Source: Flavobacterium sp. Root935 (GTDB lineage: Bacteria; Bacteroidota; Bacteroidia; Flavobacteriales; Flavobacteriaceae). Taken from it: a stretch of 64,000 nucleotides of DNA. The notes beneath the pieces were generated by a model. That model did not search any database. It saw nothing but the letters and a program-made list of their open reading frames with translations, and was not told the origin of the DNA. Made by a program: the position numbers and the translations under genes. Positions 8,567 through 14,438 of this stretch are shown piece after piece (the stretch's first letter is position 1; every line of letters starts with the position of its first letter). The stretch covers positions 124,381 through 188,380 of the forward strand of contig NZ_LMJL01000007.1 of NCBI RefSeq assembly GCF_001429295.1. Direction: 5' to 3'.

Positions 8567-11002
8567 ATGGAGAGCAAAAGAAGTTACACAGCACTCAAAG
8601 TTTTATTCAGCTATGTTGCATTATTGGCTTTGGTTGTTACAGTTGGATGGTTTTTATATTCTGAAAATGTCGTTTACAACAAACTGGAAGACAAAATTGC
8701 TTTCGAAAAAACCAAAATTCTTAGAGTCAGTAAACTTTTCTCGAACGTTTATAAAACAGAAAGTTTAGCAAGACAGACTATTCAAAATAACTCCGAAAAA
8801 GATTTTAAAAATTATTTGATCGAGACAGATTCGCTTCGTCTTCGCATCGATACTTTAAAACAAATTGTTACTACAGAATATCAAAAAACACTTTTGGACA
8901 GTGTGACTTATCTTTTATCTGAAAAGACTAAAAATATCAAGCAGTTAAAAGAAATTAAAAATAAAGCAGATGACGAAACTTCTGTAAATAATGCTATTGA
9001 CGAAATCACGAAAATGGAGTTTAATTTAAGAAAACTCGAACTTCAGGATTTCACCAAAAACCCAAACCAATTGGGAAGTTATCAGCGAGGCGTTTTACAG
9101 CGATATGTAGATTATCTCAATCAAAATATTCCAGACGACAGCACCAATACGTTGAGCAAAAAAGCTTCGGATTCTATTTTAGCAAATTCTAAAAAGCTGT
9201 TGAGCACCGTGAAAATGAAAGCTGAAAAGAAAAAAGAATCCCTAAATTTTGAAGAAAACAAACTGCTTCAAAACGAAATGGCGATTTCAGATCAGCTGCG
9301 AAAAGTACTTCGAATTATTGAACGAGAAATCATTATCAATTCGATAAAAAACAATTCACTAAAAGAAAAATCACTAAAAAGAGTCAATGAAATCGTGACG
9401 GCTTCTGCTGTTATTGGTTTATTGCTGACAGTGTTTTTCTCTATTTTAATTGTGAGTGATTATTCTAAATCACAGGTTTATAAAAAACAACTGGAAATTG
9501 CCAATTTCAAAACCAAAAACCTTCTTAAAAGCCGCGAGCAATTAATCTCGACTGTAAGCCACGATTTAAAAACTCCTTTGAGTACGATTGTGGGATATTC
9601 TGAACTTTTAGGAAATTCAGATATTAATACCAAGCAGTCTTATTTTGTAAAAAACATTAAAAATTCTTCTGAATATATTACACAGCTAGTACAGGATTTA
9701 TTGGACTTTTCGAAGATCGAAGCGGGAAAAATTGCCATCGAAAAAGTTCCGTTTTTACTTCCCGAAATTATTGAAGATGTTGCCAAAAACATTCAAACTG
9801 TTTACAAGGAAAAAAATATTGACCTGATTATTAATGTCGATGAAAAGTTTCAGAAACGCATTGTTGGTGATCCTTTTCGACTAAAACAAATCTTAACCAA
9901 TATTATTGGAAACGCATATAAATTTACAGAGGAAGGACATATTAGAATTGCCGCTTACGCGAATGAAGACCAGACTTTTACTATTTCTATTCAAGATACG
10001 GGAATTGGAATTGAAAAAGGAAATCAAAAATTAGTTTTTGAAGAATTTGCACAAGCCAATGAAAATATCGAGAAAAAATATGGTGGCACTGGTTTAGGAT
10101 TATCGATCTGCCAAAAGATTATTTCTATTTTGGGCGGAACTTTAAGTTTAGAAAGTATTTATGGCAAAGGAAGCACCTTTAAAGTTGAACTGCCATTAAT
10201 TTTTGATAATAGCCAGCCAACTACGACTAAAGTCAAAAACAAGCCATTAAAAAACACTAAAAAACAAACTTTTATTGTTGTTGACGATGACATTAATCTG
10301 TTGAATCTGACAAGTGGTGTTTTAAAACAAGAACAACATCAGGTTTTATCTTTTAGCAATCCTGCAAAGGCTTTAGAAACCATTCAAAACACGCCTTTTG
10401 ATTTTGTGATTACTGATATTCAGATGCCAGAAATCGACGGATTTTTGTTCTTAGAAAAGCTTCGTGAACTTCCTGATTCTGTTTTCAAAAATCAGCCCGT
10501 AATAGCGTTAACTGGTCGAACAGATTTGGACCTTTCGGTTTATAAAGAAGCTGGTTTTTCTACTGTTGTCAAAAAGCCATATTCGCCAAAAATTTTGCTC
10601 GAAACTATCCAGCATATTTTAGACAATGAAGAAATTCCGGATACTGAATTTTCAGAAACTGCAGAAAATCATTCTTCTCAAATGTATTCTTTAGATACTT
10701 TAAAAGATTTTCTTGGTCAAGATGAATCCGCTTTGAAAGAGGTTCTAAAATCTTTCATAGACAGCAGTATAGAAAATATAGGTCTTTTGAGCACGGCTAT
10801 ACAAGAAAACAATCACGACGAAATAAAATCGATTGCACATCGTATTGCGCCAATGTTTAAACAAATTCAGGCGAATGAAATTGGTGAGATTTTAAAGAAA
10901 TTAGAAAAAGACGATTTGAATACTTTAGATTTGGAAAGTATGTTTATCGATTTAAAAGAAAAAATGAATGTCTTTTTTGAAGAATTAAAACAAGAAGTAT
11001 AA
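8567..11002 (+). CDS. Hybrid sensor histidine kinase with receiver and Hpt domains
   Basis: 811 residues. Membrane helix 1 (about 14-31), a mostly helical periplasmic sensor region (32-276), membrane helix 2 (277-297), HisKA with phospho-acceptor H332 in T-V-S-H-D-L-K-T-P-L, HATPase (N-box near 445-449, D-T-G-I-G-I at 477-482, G-G-T-G-L-G-L near 506-512), receiver domain with D617 in V-I-T-D-I-Q-M-P, and a C-terminal Hpt domain with H758 in I-A-H-R-I-A-P. The separate Hpt His allows a phosphorelay to another receiver. The convergent neighbour is a sigma-54-type response regulator, the obvious partner. The sensor region has no recognisable PAS or Cache domain, so the signal is unknown. Confidence 0.93.
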   Translation: MESKRSYTALKVLFSYVALLALVVTVGWFLYSENVVYNKLEDKIAFEKTKILRVSKLFSNVYKTESLARQTIQNNSEKDFKNYLIETDSLRLRIDTLKQIVTTEYQKTLLDSVTYLLSEKTKNIKQLKEIKNKADDETSVNNAIDEITKMEFNLRKLELQDFTKNPNQLGSYQRGVLQRYVDYLNQNIPDDSTNTLSKKASDSILANSKKLLSTVKMKAEKKKESLNFEENKLLQNEMAISDQLRKVLRIIEREIIINSIKNNSLKEKSLKRVNEIVTASAVIGLLLTVFFSILIVSDYSKSQVYKKQLEIANFKTKNLLKSREQLISTVSHDLKTPLSTIVGYSELLGNSDINTKQSYFVKNIKNSSEYITQLVQDLLDFSKIEAGKIAIEKVPFLLPEIIEDVAKNIQTVYKEKNIDLIINVDEKFQKRIVGDPFRLKQILTNIIGNAYKFTEEGHIRIAAYANEDQTFTISIQDTGIGIEKGNQKLVFEEFAQANENIEKKYGGTGLGLSICQKIISILGGTLSLESIYGKGSTFKVELPLIFDNSQPTTTKVKNKPLKNTKKQTFIVVDDDINLLNLTSGVLKQEQHQVLSFSNPAKALETIQNTPFDFVITDIQMPEIDGFLFLEKLRELPDSVFKNQPVIALTGRTDLDLSVYKEAGFSTVVKKPYSPKILLETIQHILDNEEIPDTEFSETAENHSSQMYSLDTLKDFLGQDESALKEVLKSFIDSSIENIGLLSTAIQENNHDEIKSIAHRIAPMFKQIQANEIGEILKKLEKDDLNTLDLESMFIDLKEKMNVFFEELKQEV

Positions 11003-11006
11003 AAAA

Positions 11007-11034
11007 AGTAAAGCATTTTTTTAAATGCTTTACT
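11007..11034. terminator. Bidirectional terminator between kinase and regulator genes
   Basis: AGTAAAGCATTT / AAATGCTTTACT stem with a T-only loop, A tract on the left. It overlaps the stop codon of the regulator gene on the minus strand and lies 5 nt after the kinase stop. Confidence 0.85.
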
Positions 11035-12379
11035 CTATGTTGTATTGTTTCAATTTATTGTAAAGCGTCTTCCTAGTAATTTTTAAGAGCTTCGCTGCCT
11101 CCGATTTATTATTCTGTGCTTTTGATAAAGCGTGAATAATAGTCTCTCTTTCATTTTCAGATAATGACATTCCTGCTGCAGGCTGTTGTTTTTGAATTTG
11201 AAAAAATTCTGCTGGAAGTACATCACTTTCAATAAAATTACCACGAGATAAAAGAGTTGCACGTTTTACGCAATTCTGCAATTCTCTTAGATTTCCAGGC
11301 CAGCTATAATTTTGAAAAATAGAAACTACTTCTGGAGAAAATCCGATGATATCTTTATTTAACTGCTGATTTGCTTTTTCTAAGAAATAATCGGCAAAAA
11401 CCATTAAATCTTCATCACGATCTTTTAAAGATGGAGACTGAATCGAAAACTCGTTGATTCTATGGTATAAATCTTCTCTAAAATCGCCGTTTTTTACTGC
11501 CTCGCGCAAATCTTCATTTGTAGCTGTAATAATGCGTATATCGACGTTTATTTCTTTATTACTTCCAACGGGTTTAATTTTTCTTTCTTGAAGTGCTCTT
11601 AACAACTGAATTTGATTTTCGTATGAAAGATTTCCAATTTCATCCAAAAATAATGTTCCACCATTTGCTGCTTCAAAATAACCCATTTTATCACTGATCG
11701 CTCCTGTAAAAGATCCTTTTAAATGACCAAAAAATTCACTCGCAGCTAATTCTTTCGGAATAGCACCGCAGTCAACTGCTATAAAATTATTGTTTTTTCT
11801 CTGGCTTTGCTGATGTATACTTTTTGCAATAATTTCTTTTCCAGTTCCGCTTTCGCCGATAATTAAAACCGACATATCAGTAGGACTGACTAATTCAATA
11901 TGATCTAACAGTTTTTTAGAAGCAACAGAAATTCCTTTTACAAACTCATTTTCTGTAGAAACTGTTTTTTTGACTTTCTTTTTTTCTTTAACCGGAGTTT
12001 CGGTTTCGTCTTCCAGCTCTTGCGATTTTAGAGCGTTAGTAATAACTAATAAAACCTCATCGGGATTGAAAGGTTTAGAAATATAATCTGCCGCGCCATT
12101 CTTAATGGCTTTAACTGCAGTATTTACATCCGAATATCCCGTCATCAAAATGACTGGAATATTAGGGTATGAATTTTTGAATTCTGACATTAAAGCAATA
12201 CCGTCAAAATCAGGCAGACGAAGATCTGTCAAAATCAAATCGAAAGATTCGTTTTTAACTGCTGTACGCGCTTCTGCAGCAGAGAAAGCTATCGTTACAT
12301 CGTAAGCTTTTTTAATTAGAAATTTTTCTAATAATTTGCAAAACGCGATGTCATCTTCTATCAATAATATCTTCGGCAT
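11030..12379 (-). CDS. NtrC-type sigma-54-dependent response regulator
   Basis: 449 residues: receiver domain (D52 in L-T-D-L-R-L-P, acidic pair E-D-D at 8-10, K near 102), a lysine/glutamate-rich linker (about 125-145), AAA+ sigma-54 activation domain with Walker A G-E-S-G-T-G-K-E, the sigma-54 contact loop as G-S-F-T-G-A and Walker B G-T-L-F-L-D-E-I, and a Fis-type HTH at the C-terminus (N-K-S-E-A-A-K-L-L-K-I-T-R). It activates sigma-54 promoters after phosphorylation. It lies between its probable kinase and the five PepSY-like genes, which makes that array a candidate target. Confidence 0.94.
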   Translation of the reverse strand: MPKILLIEDDIAFCKLLEKFLIKKAYDVTIAFSAAEARTAVKNESFDLILTDLRLPDFDGIALMSEFKNSYPNIPVILMTGYSDVNTAVKAIKNGAADYISKPFNPDEVLLVITNALKSQELEDETETPVKEKKKVKKTVSTENEFVKGISVASKKLLDHIELVSPTDMSVLIIGESGTGKEIIAKSIHQQSQRKNNNFIAVDCGAIPKELAASEFFGHLKGSFTGAISDKMGYFEAANGGTLFLDEIGNLSYENQIQLLRALQERKIKPVGSNKEINVDIRIITATNEDLREAVKNGDFREDLYHRINEFSIQSPSLKDRDEDLMVFADYFLEKANQQLNKDIIGFSPEVVSIFQNYSWPGNLRELQNCVKRATLLSRGNFIESDVLPAEFFQIQKQQPAAGMSLSENERETIIHALSKAQNNKSEAAKLLKITRKTLYNKLKQYNIE

Positions 12380-12446
12380 TTGAGTTTAGGGAGTTTTTTG
12401 CTAAAATAAGACTATTAAAATTGTATTTTCACAAAATTATGCAAAA

Positions 12447-12477
12447 AAAAAGAGATTGCACGTCGCAATCTCTTTTT
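12447..12477 (-). terminator. Terminator of the PepSY-like array
   Basis: AGAGATTGC / GCAATCTCT stem (12451-12473) with A and T tracts on either side. It separates the last PepSY-like gene from the response regulator gene, so the array and the regulator need not share a transcript. Confidence 0.85.
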
Positions 12478-12507
12478 CACCAAAAACATAAATCTAAATT
12501 CACCTAA

Positions 12508-12804
12508 TTATATCTTCAACCAGTTACCATTGACATCTGAGTAAACAGTAGCCTTTTGGTCTCCAACTGATATTTCGAGTTTATACTCTTTTTTTTCGTT
12601 TACAAATGCTTTCTCCAATTTTGCACCTGGATAAGCTGTCTGCAAGGCTGTTTTTACAGCTGCAGGCACAGCATCTGCAGCAACTTCTGTATATTCGGAC
12701 TGAATAATGACAGTAGTTTTAATATCTTCTGAAACTGGCAATACATCTGCATGAATTGACATTGTTCCAAAAAGGATAACTGCTGATAACATTAATTTTT
12801 TCAT
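12508..12804 (-). CDS. Secreted PepSY-like protein, paralogue 5 of a tandem array
   Basis: 98 residues: signal peptide (M-K-K-L-M-L-S-A, ends near H-A-D) and one PepSY-like domain (family formerly DUF2874). The signature is E-V-A-A-D-A-V-P-A-A-V-K, then A-Y-P-G-A-K-L-E-K-A, E-Y-K-L-E-I and a C-terminal beta hairpin with D-V-N-G-N-W. PepSY-like domains are small periplasmic folds thought to bind peptides or inhibit enzymes; the exact role is not known. It is the most downstream gene of five, 15 bp from its neighbour, and probably translated from the common mRNA. Confidence 0.85.
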   Translation of the reverse strand: MKKLMLSAVILFGTMSIHADVLPVSEDIKTTVIIQSEYTEVAADAVPAAVKTALQTAYPGAKLEKAFVNEKKEYKLEISVGDQKATVYSDVNGNWLKI

Positions 12805-12819
12805 GATGCTGATTTTTAA

Positions 12820-13113
12820 TTATTTTTTAATGATATTACCAGAAGCATCTGTAAAAATAGTATACTTCTTGTCTCCATTTGAAATCTCAAGTTTGTACTC
12901 GTTTTTCTCGTTTTTATAAGCTTTTTCAAGCTTAGTTTTCGGGAAAGATTTTTCAACTGTAGACTTTACTGCTGCTGGAACGGCGTCTGCAGCTACTTCA
13001 GTAAATTCATCTTGAATTAGTACTGATTGAGAAATCGAAATTGCTGGCAGTATAGCGGCATTTACCGATAAACTTCCTAAAACAATCGCTGCTGATAAGA
13101 TTAACTTTTTCAT
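12820..13113 (-). CDS. Secreted PepSY-like protein, paralogue 4
   Basis: 97 residues. The signal peptide M-K-K-L-I-L-S-A-A-I-V-L-G-S-L-S is nearly identical to that of paralogue 3, showing recent duplication. The mature domain keeps V-P-A-A-V-K, F-P-K-T-K-L-E-K-A-Y-K-N-E, E-Y-K-L-E-I and a final D-A-S-G-N. It shares F-T-E-V-A-A-D-A-V-P with paralogue 5, suggesting those two diverged from each other after the leader was copied. Spacing to the next gene upstream is 18 bp. Confidence 0.85.
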   Translation of the reverse strand: MKKLILSAAIVLGSLSVNAAILPAISISQSVLIQDEFTEVAADAVPAAVKSTVEKSFPKTKLEKAYKNEKNEYKLEISNGDKKYTIFTDASGNIIKK

Positions 13114-13131
13114 AATATTGTGGTTTAAAAA

Positions 13132-13422
13132 TTATTTTTTAAGAATGTTACCAGAAGCGTCTGTAAAGACAATTGACTTTTCACCTCTAACAGTGATCTC
13201 AATTTTGTACTCCTTTTTGTCATTTACCCATGCTTTTTCAAGCACTACACCAGGATAAGCCTCGTCTAAGCCTTTCTTTACAGCTGCCGGAACTCCGTCT
13301 ACTTCTTTATATCCATCCTGATCATTAACTGTCTGTACCATTGGGCTGGTTACAGCAGTGGTTTCTGCGTGCATCGACAAACTGCCTAAAACAATTGCTG
13401 CCGATAGAATCAACTTTTTCAT
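13132..13422 (-). CDS. Secreted PepSY-like protein, paralogue 3
   Basis: 96 residues with the same signal peptide as paralogue 4 and a PepSY-like domain: Y-K-E-V-D-G-V-P-A-A-V-K-K, A-Y-P-G-V-V-L-E-K-A-W-V-N, E-Y-K-I-E-I, and F-T-D-A-S-G-N. It is the most acidic at the mature N-terminus (N-D-Q-D-G) and lacks the A-A-D-A insertion of paralogues 4 and 5. Same strand, 29 bp from paralogue 2. Confidence 0.85.
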   Translation of the reverse strand: MKKLILSAAIVLGSLSMHAETTAVTSPMVQTVNDQDGYKEVDGVPAAVKKGLDEAYPGVVLEKAWVNDKKEYKIEITVRGEKSIVFTDASGNILKK

Positions 13423-13451
13423 AGTAATAGTTTTTAAGGGTTAGTCTTAGA

Positions 13452-13748
13452 TTATTTTTTAATCCAAGTTCCGTCTGCGTTTGCAAAAAGATTTCCTGTT
13501 TTATCTCCAACAGTTACTTCTAACTTGTACTCAGATTTTGTGTTTTTAAATGCTTTAGTAAGCACAGCATCTGGATATGCTTTTTTAAGAGCATCTGTTA
13601 CTGCTGTTGGAAGCTCTTCCAATTTAATTTCTGTATAATCATCTTGGATAGAGATTGTTTTTACGATAGTATTTGAAATTGGCGAAGTTGAAGCAAATGA
13701 TGTTAAACCTCCCAAAACGATTGCGGCTGATAAAAATAAATTTTTCAT
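13452..13748 (-). CDS. Secreted PepSY-like protein, paralogue 2
   Basis: 98 residues; signal peptide M-K-N-L-F-L-S-A-A-I-V-L-G and mature domain with Y-T-E-I-K-L-E-E-L-P, A-Y-P-D-A-V, E-Y-K-L-E-V and ending N-A-D-G-T-W-I-K-K. About three quarters of its residues match paralogue 1, the closest pair in the array. A 75-bp gap to paralogue 1 could hold a secondary promoter but no clear element is visible. Confidence 0.85.
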   Translation of the reverse strand: MKNLFLSAAIVLGGLTSFASTSPISNTIVKTISIQDDYTEIKLEELPTAVTDALKKAYPDAVLTKAFKNTKSEYKLEVTVGDKTGNLFANADGTWIKK

Positions 13749-13823
13749 GATAGTTATATTTTAATGTTGTTAATTTTATTTTAGTATTCTTGAACTGGAT
13801 TTTCACACCAATCTATTTTTAGA

Positions 13824-14120
13824 TTATTTTTTAATCCAAGTTCCGTCTGCATTAGCGAAAAGATTTCCAACTTTGTCACCAACAGTAACGTCAAGTTTGT
13901 ACTCTGATTTTTCGTTTTTATATGCTTTTGTAATTACTGCTTCTGGATATGCTTTTTTCAAAGCTTCTGTAATTGCAGCTGGTAATTCTTCTAATTTGAT
14001 CTCTGTGTATTCGTCTTCAATAGAAATCGTTTTTACGATTGTATTTGTTACTTGTGTATTTGAAGCGAATGAAGTTAAACTTCCTAAGACAATTGCGGCT
14101 GATAAAAATAAATTTTTCAT
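13824..14120 (-). CDS. Secreted PepSY-like protein, paralogue 1 (first gene of the array)
   Basis: 98 residues with the leader M-K-N-L-F-L-S-A-A-I-V-L-G-S-L-T, E-I-K-L-E-E-L-P-A-A-I-T, A-Y-P-E-A-V-I-T-K-A-Y and C-terminal N-A-D-G-T-W-I-K-K. As the promoter-proximal gene it follows a roughly 320-bp upstream region containing a sigma-54-like -24 element and inverted repeats, which suggests regulated expression of the whole set. Function of the family is not established; periplasmic location is clear from the leader. Confidence 0.87.
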   Translation of the reverse strand: MKNLFLSAAIVLGSLTSFASNTQVTNTIVKTISIEDEYTEIKLEELPAAITEALKKAYPEAVITKAYKNEKSEYKLDVTVGDKVGNLFANADGTWIKK

Positions 14121-14184
14121 AACGTATATATTTAATATTAATAGTTGTTTACGCTTTAGGTAATGAAATTATTATGCCGTAATA

Positions 14185-14202
14185 GAAAAGAACTGTGCCA
14201 AA
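14185..14202 (-). promoter_or_regulatory. Candidate sigma-54 promoter (-24 element strong, -12 weak)
   Basis: On the minus strand a TTTGGCAC motif (14202-14195) matches the sigma-54 -24 consensus TTGGCAC exactly. At the proper 10-nt distance the -12 dinucleotide is TT instead of GC, so the match is partial. Two further GGCAT motifs flank it (near 14177 and 14242). It lies 75 bp upstream of the first PepSY-like gene, next to a gene for a sigma-54 activator. Confidence 0.35.
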
Positions 14203-14208
14203 CGCCAT

Positions 14209-14231
14209 AAACCCTTATTTTTAAAGGGTTT
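14209..14231. promoter_or_regulatory. Inverted repeat upstream of the PepSY array (possible activator site)
   Basis: AAACCCTT / AAGGGTTT, 8-bp arms and 7-bp centre, lying just upstream of the sigma-54-like element with respect to the array. Further upstream (14266-14312) GTGTGTAA occurs twice and is followed by AAACAC and AGTGTAA. Any of these could be bound by the neighbouring NtrC-type regulator. The repeat lacks a T tract on the array side and so is not an obvious terminator. Confidence 0.35.
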
Positions 14232-14438
14232 GATTAATTATGCCAAAAAAAGATAAATTTCAAAAAGTGTGTAAAAGATAAAAAAGGTGTGTAATAAGTA
14301 AACACTTAAAGTGTAACCTTAGAAGAAATTTCAAATTTTAAAATTCCAAATTCCAATGTTTGAGATTCAAATTATAACTCCAAGTTGGAATTTGGAGTTT
14401 ATTTATTGGAATTTTAAATAAAGTGCATATAAAAGAAA

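Follow-up and report, generated by a model that had tools for sequence, protein, structure and literature searches.

The 64,000-nucleotide stretch of Flavobacterium sp. Root935 analyzed here (contig NZ_LMJL01000007.1, positions 124,381 to 188,380; the window) carries a hybrid histidine kinase gene, an NtrC-type regulator gene and an array of five genes for small exported PepSY-like proteins, which very probably form a dedicated two-component/sigma-54 circuit with the array as its output. The kinase gene (8567–11002, plus strand, 811 amino acids) is convergent with the regulator gene (11030–12379, minus strand, 449 amino acids). The array lies upstream of the regulator on the minus strand and runs from the promoter-proximal gene 1 (13824–14120, 98 amino acids) through gene 2 (13452–13748, 98 amino acids), gene 3 (13132–13422, 96 amino acids) and gene 4 (12820–13113, 97 amino acids) to the regulator-proximal gene 5 (12508–12804, 98 amino acids); a first-pass annotation of the same DNA had placed all seven genes correctly. 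Terminator-like hairpins occupy both junctions, one between kinase and regulator (11005–11036, both strands in the scan; −14.7 kcal/mol on the minus strand, z −5.96) and one between array and regulator (12446–12478, minus strand; −19.4 kcal/mol for 12436–12490, z −4.67), the latter found by folding and absent from the hairpin scan listing. Neither was equaled by any of 200 shuffles. Because the kinase is convergent and hairpins stand at both junctions, kinase, regulator and array are probably three transcription units and not a single operon.

Pfam assigns the kinase the domain order HisKA-HATPase-REC-Hpt, with phospho-residues H332, D617 and H758 in the HisKA, REC and Hpt domains, and assigns the regulator a REC domain (D52), a sigma-54 AAA+ domain and a Fis-type HTH_8 domain, confirming what had been read from the sequence as a hybrid kinase and an NtrC-type regulator. 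The Hpt, described earlier as separate, is instead the C-terminal domain of the same 811-residue open reading frame (ORF); its Pfam score of 22.3 bits is under the 24.6 cut-off. All three kinase residues are kept in every homolog aligned (80/80 from Flavobacterium and 72/72 from elsewhere, 152/152 together), and D52 is likewise kept in 80/80 Flavobacterium regulators and 74/74 others (154/154). These counts are of alignment columns, simple regular expressions having undercounted the distant homologs (for example Hpt, 40/72). The residue set of a His-Asp-His-Asp phosphorelay is complete in kinase and regulator, and phosphotransfer along it is predicted. The regulator also carries the loop GSFTGA at residues 222–227, and a GxFTGA loop is found in 154/154 regulators (GSFTGA in 80/80 within the genus and 70/74 outside it, GAFTGA in 4/74). 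This domain set and loop are those of a sigma-54 enhancer-binding response regulator of the NtrC type, for which activation itself is predicted. The best NCBIfam match of the regulator is ZraR, at 394.9 bits, far under the 760 cut-off. Its HTH is on average 59% identical (minimum 48%) to those of regulators from other genera and 32–41% identical to those of paralogs in its own genome (n = 6 of seven paralog loci, L007 being left out). By eye, the kinase sensor is extracytoplasmic, helical and flanked by two hydrophobic stretches, and residues 1–320 are predicted to be all-helical (pLDDT 72.5). The nearest solved fold to this model is the McpS ligand-binding domain, a weak match (TM 0.28–0.37), and the model itself is no more than a generic helical bundle.

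The five array proteins are 96–98 amino acids long, have signal-peptide-like N-termini (by eye) and are 42–83% identical to the product of gene 1, with gene 2 at 83% and gene 3 at 46%. Only gene 4 passes the PF11396 (PepSY_like) cut-off of 28.3 bits, scoring 32.1; gene 5 reaches 23.3 bits and gene 3 has no Pfam match. As four of the five stay under the cut-off, we call them PepSY-like, or PF11396-related, and not full family members, so that the earlier description of five secreted PepSY-like proteins stands for the gene number and the N-termini, and for the family threshold in one protein only. A profile of the five finds the PF11396-type structures 3due (4.1e-5) and 3db7 (0.0022) in the PDB, and a structure model of gene 1 (pLDDT 68) has 3u1w, 3db7 and 4fr9 as its nearest folds (probability 1.00, but best E 0.011). 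These matches make them look related to the BLIP-like DUF2874 group, but with a single domain each. None of the five matches a ZraP-type family in Pfam or NCBIfam, and a search of the genome with the array profile returned no genes beyond them. In the 50 five-gene loci among the 80 Flavobacterium loci, a paralog finds its best match at its own position in 100, 100, 96, 85 and 82% of comparisons, with positions counted from the regulator. The positions thus keep their identity between species, which fits specialized copies and not redundant ones.

Within the genus, the 80 loci have regulators 83–94% identical to that of the window; in every one the array adjoins the regulator on its upstream side and the kinase is convergent. 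Arrays hold 3–7 genes (five in 50 loci, six in 27, and three, four or seven in one locus each). Flavobacterium johnsoniae strain CI04 has the module as well (locus L039). Housekeeping neighbors are equally well conserved here (S9 peptidase in 79 loci, FAD oxidoreductase in 78, accC in 80), so that synteny within the genus alone proves little. The close relatedness of these loci would suit passive synteny, with the promoter likeness discussed below due to shared ancestry only. The first-pass annotation had suggested that the array proteins possibly modulate peptidases such as the neighboring S9 enzyme. The S9 gene is a direct neighbor in the window, as it is in 79/80 Flavobacterium loci, and DUF2874 proteins have been proposed as inhibitors (PMC2954215). 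Other genera speak against both proposals. Among 60 array loci of other genera (57 genomes, chosen among the matches listed of 122 genomes, mostly one per genus), 54 have the regulator, at 51–64% identity, together with a convergent kinase; locus L226 has its kinase at a distance of about 2 kb. A further 20 loci were taken on the regulator, from genomes in which the array matched weakly, was missing, lay elsewhere or had still to be examined, and 18 of these have the kinase and 14 the array within the stretch. S9 peptidase, FAD oxidoreductase and accC are found in 0/80 of these loci (60 + 20). We therefore consider inhibition of the S9 peptidase most improbable, and that neighbor falls away as a partner. 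Passive synteny appears scarcely credible, since the signal persists over many genera in which the tested neighbors are lost.

Co-occurrence across 299 Flavobacteriaceae genomes points the same way. The array profile matches 122 genomes and the regulator 102 (E ≤ 1e-120, one match per genome), with both in 99 (Fisher p 3.5e-52). At array E < 1e-12, a threshold set after the data were seen, the regulator is present in 89/89 genomes, and the 23 array genomes without a regulator have weaker array matches only (E 2e-12 or worse). The first-pass annotation had proposed this comparison and held that arrays found mostly without the regulator would speak against the pairing; the 299 genomes do not have that pattern. 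Of the 102 regulator genomes, 99 have an array match. We read the array as the output because strong array matches never occur without the regulator in this sample, and the regulator lacks an array match in 3/102 genomes (G044, G193 and G286). A class-level search gave regulator matches in 94/396 genomes. Twenty regions from these 94 genomes were examined; two are from the same genus, both with the array, and 14 of the other 18 show no array, while in L295 an array profile match lies downstream of the regulator instead. Three loci outside the family (L300, L303 and L306) have a regulator, a small PepSY-like or similar upstream gene and a convergent kinase, with no TTACAC in the scanned 1.6 kb. 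At L250 an apparent decayed PepSY-like gene was seen by eye about 270–500 bp before an intact-looking regulator and kinase. In several genera a gene with the motif SSGxGGQHVNKT, which we take to be peptide-release-factor-like, lies upstream of the module (L241, L244, L245 and L246).

The DNA ahead of gene 1 holds a candidate promoter element, CGGCATAATAATTTC (14165–14179, minus strand), with GGCAT as its −24 box and TTTC as its −12 box. The pattern GGCAY-N5-TTTC is present in 81/81 upstream regions, namely those of the 80 Flavobacterium loci and of the window, and starts 54–65 bp ahead of the start codon in all of them; one locus, L059, was omitted from the upstream alignment and from aligned-column and spacing counts, and kept in the 81-region pattern counts. 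A longer pattern of CGGCATAATAATTTC has a single exact match in the genome. From the spacing, array transcription is predicted to start near 14153, about 33 nt ahead of the first ATG and 12 nt beyond the C of TTTC. In other genera 68 upstream regions were compared (from 74 loci with the regulator, six of which were set aside for want of an adjacent array). TGGCAY occurs in 46/68 (shuffles 1.4) and TGGYAY in 58/68 (shuffles 4.0), GGCAY-N5-YYYC in 41/68 and GGCAY-N5-TTTC in 28/68 (shuffles 0.0 for each), and the −12 box reads TTTC, or TTCC/TCCC in part of these genera. Around the predicted start there is a strongly conserved stretch, TAAAGCGTAAACAACTATTAA (14130–14165 and aligned loci), holding a half-site-like word, GTAAAC, that is perhaps a second regulatory site.

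The perfect TTGGCAC −24 element noticed earlier is indeed present, at 14195–14201 on the minus strand, within TTGGCAC-N5-TTTTC (14185–14201). It is kept in place in only 12/81 regions, the window included, and TTGGCAY in 26/81, with the conserved GGCAY-N5-TTTC lying 20 bp nearer the gene; it is probably not the main promoter. Many Flavobacterium regions have yet another TTGGCA-type element, located near 14240 in the window (about −128 relative to the first ATG) and with no clear −12 partner. The 8-bp inverted repeat AAACCCTT/AAGGGTTT, also noticed earlier, is there as well, between enhancer and promoter (14209–14216/14224–14231, z −2.19), but is not a conserved element, as arms of at least 7 occur in that interval in only 8/81 regions.

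Farther upstream lie the GTGTGTAA repeats, beginning at 14267 and 14287, which the first-pass annotation had singled out and which are conserved enhancer-like sites, TTACAC being found at −215 to −140 in 79/81 regions. On the minus strand they read as a putative half-site TTACACAC (14267–14274), conserved in register, a putative dyad GTGTTTAC-TTA-TTACACAC (14287–14305), with TTACACAC exact in 60/80 aligned rows, and an overlapping upstream putative dyad TTACACTTTAAGTGTTTAC (14298–14316) in a conserved block. Copies are spaced 20 bp apart in 68/110 pairs and 22 bp in 22/110, often forming a dyad with GTGTnTA. The exact TTACACAC pair occurs once only in the genome, and the tandem pattern gives 87 matches upstream of arrays (56/80 loci with a stricter pattern) and 0 in the rest of the 1.37 Mb that the 80 loci cover. 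In other genera, unbiased 6-mer counting returns AGTGTG, ACACAC, TACACA and GTGTAA as the top words. The enhancer word is found in 53/68 regions, and at least two such words in 40/68 (shuffles 0.5). These sites lie at a median of −137 from the predicted start (10–90%: −157 to −115; n = 95 sites), and 115–157 bp upstream of the start is a usual place for activators of the NtrC class. The IHF-type consensus WATCARNNNNTTR occurs at −170 to −60 in 18/68 array upstream regions of other genera (shuffles 0.9), which suggests a DNA-bending site.

The same elements recur inside arrays. Loci of other genera contain 35 array-internal gaps of at least 200 bp (25 loci), of which 30 hold TGGYAY-N5-TTTC (shuffles 0.04, maximum 1), 33 hold TGGYAY (shuffles 3.5) and 29 the enhancer word (shuffles 4.0); a search of the array gaps of six loci for unseen genes found none. 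The array-to-regulator gaps average about 205 bp and so are shorter; TGGYAY occurs in 12/68 of them and the enhancer word in 5/68. The presence of both elements in long array gaps and their rarity next to the regulator indicate that it is the array genes that they accompany. The 19 short array gaps hold neither motif (0/19), a weak control because most are too short for the sites. Six arrays lie away from the regulator, in genomes that have it elsewhere, and ahead of their first genes the enhancer word is found in 5/6 and TGGYAY-N5-TTTC in 3/6; L182, L185 and L232 have the enhancer word with TGGCAY-N5-TTTC. Such copies in internal gaps, and in part at non-adjacent arrays, are not what passive synteny would leave.

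In the circuit that we propose, an extracytoplasmic signal would reach the helical sensor of the kinase, and phosphate would pass from H332 through D617 and H758 to the regulator, at D52. Once phosphorylated, the regulator would bind the TTACACAC/GTGTnTA sites and drive sigma-54 RNA polymerase at the GGCAY-N5-TTTC promoter, so that the small exported PepSY-like proteins are made. The parts, their co-inheritance, the conserved sites and the conserved phospho-residues can be read directly from the genomes. That the regulator activates the array through a sigma-54-type promoter, much as the first-pass annotation proposed, is supported by comparative genomics, namely by the co-occurrence, by the conserved enhancer-like repeat together with GGCAY-N5-TTTC, by the copies in internal gaps and, in part, by the non-adjacent arrays.

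A number of observations weigh against this circuit. Textbook sigma-54 boxes end in TTGC; the −12 box here is TTTC in 81/81, with the C retained and T in place of G, and the −24 of the window starts CGGCAT. A scan of the genome for the canonical TTGGCAY-N5-TTGC showed no enrichment (2 matches versus 3 in the control). In other genera the strict forms miss a share of the loci, the promoter pattern GGCAY-N5-TTTC being present in 28/68, GGCAY-N5-YYYC in 41/68 and the enhancer word in 53/68. The Fisher test ignores relatedness, as do the counts given here, and rpoN, present in this genome and in 299/299 Flavobacteriaceae genomes, discriminates nothing for that reason. Six of the 20 regulator-selected loci have no array and two no kinase within the stretch. 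Among the non-adjacent arrays, L180 and L205 have enhancer words and TGGYAY words and no TGGYAY-N5-TTTC, and L233 has neither the enhancer word nor TGGYAY-N5-TTTC. Finally, L239 and L243, which belong to the same other genus, have enhancer words and TGGCAC-N5-TTTC at 420–720 bp before the regulator (in L243, with TGGCACGTTATTTTC, at least 423 bp upstream) where no PepSY-like ORF was found, so an array may not be what such sites serve in every case. They could be explained by the loss of a gene, by a small RNA or by a long leader of the regulator. L243 enters none of the promoter counts, and neither locus has a kinase within the stretch. The genome's sole rpoN match (G000:C5:111604-112083) is on the same contig as the window, 12.3 kb before its start and about 21 kb from the kinase gene.

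The departure from TTGC also speaks for a different account, in which a housekeeping sigma-A promoter (TAnnTTTG) drives the array, the TTACACAC repeats bind another regulator and the NtrC-type protein is a mere conserved neighbor; the conserved block does hold TAATTTCA, which loosely resembles TAnnTTTG. The −12 box, however, varies within the genus. Sigma-54 promoters of groES, grpE and others in F. psychrophilum were mapped by 5′-end RNA-seq, according to the main text of PMC9723704. The upstream elements that we read from the sequences of the present genome, TGGCACAATTTCTGA for groES and TTGGCAGTACTTTTGC for grpE, differ in this respect, the former being without TTGC and the latter having it. 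Scanning the upstream regions of groES for a strict GGCA/TTGC-type pattern gave no match, and a sigma-70 style promoter scan gave 23 matches versus 22.3 expected. A housekeeping promoter would leave three things unaccounted for: the fixed GGCA/TTTC spacing in 81/81 regions that recurs across genera, the position of the enhancer sites, mostly 115–157 bp upstream of the predicted start, and the regulator in every genome with an array at E < 1e-12. We thus regard it as decidedly improbable.

What the array proteins do is a more tentative matter. From their fold family only, the chances seem about even that they bind other periplasmic proteins as inhibitors or chaperone-like buffers. In PMC2954215, DUF2874 proteins are proposed as inhibitors and no PepSY-like/DUF2874 member of Bacteroidota had been biochemically characterized at that date. 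It is also possible that the proteins feed back on the kinase. In the fuller form of that idea, which is compatible with the circuit proposed here, they would be feedback or sensing partners of the kinase, as in CpxP-CpxA and ZraP-ZraSR, keeping it inactive until they are drawn off by misfolded envelope material. CpxP behaves so in enteric bacteria (PMC6737893), and the title of a reference listed there describes ZraP as repressing ZraSR. Co-inheritance of the array with both kinase and regulator would suit such a role, but G044, G193 and G286 retain the regulator without an array match. In G193 and G286 the regulator still has its kinase next to it, so the two can be retained where the array is missing, and we find this form of feedback conceivable but rather doubtful. 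A still bolder picture, which we judge unlikely, is a multi-channel envelope rheostat: each paralog would cap a different class of periplasmic client, one sigma-54 phosphorelay would make them all, free proteins would shut the kinase off, and paralog number and mix would set the response.

If the proposed circuit is right, it ties one large group of PepSY-like/DUF2874 proteins to a specific switch that is passed on as a unit and for which enhancer, promoter and phosphorelay are predicted, and the inducer and the role of these proteins become testable questions. To our knowledge no PepSY-like/DUF2874 member of Bacteroidota has been biochemically characterized in more recent work. A further gain is a collection of sigma-54-type promoters whose −12 box reads TTTC, along with candidate enhancer sites, in many genera of one family. 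In a literature search that reached few subscription papers, no PepSY-like array controlled by an NtrC-type regulator was found described.

Of known systems, ZraPSR of enteric bacteria has the nearest logic, with a different output and kinase. There, a two-component sigma-54 activator acts at a sigma-54 promoter to control one small protein of the periplasm (PMC4987338), and ZraR is the best, if far sub-threshold, NCBIfam match of the window's regulator. The kinase here is a hybrid with REC and Hpt domains, and in place of ZraP the output is a multi-gene PepSY-like array. In the enteric system zraSR is itself under the control of ZraR, through a divergent sigma-54 promoter (PMC4987338), whereas the array-to-regulator gaps here rarely hold the motifs.

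A second comparison, with CpxP-CpxAR, involves a different fold and a different class of regulator. The likeness is that CpxP is a small periplasmic protein, strongly expressed as part of its regulon, whose role in signaling is mainly negative (PMC6737893). The BLIP-like PF11396/DUF2874 proteins BVU2987 and BT0923 resemble the array proteins in being exported and in a weak sequence and fold match, but BVU2987 is a tandem repeat (PMC2954215), unlike the single-domain array proteins, four of which score under the Pfam cut-off. PG0717 of Porphyromonas gingivalis is a DUF2874 protein encoded in the same region as the HaeSR two-component genes; it differs in being one lipoprotein with four domains, and no sigma-54 link was seen in the part of PMC3764172 consulted. 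A parallel within the genus is the sigma-54 (SM4) regulon of F. psychrophilum. The main text of PMC9723704, from which the word PepSY is absent, places sigma-54 promoters in Flavobacterium and links them to protein quality control and envelope stress.

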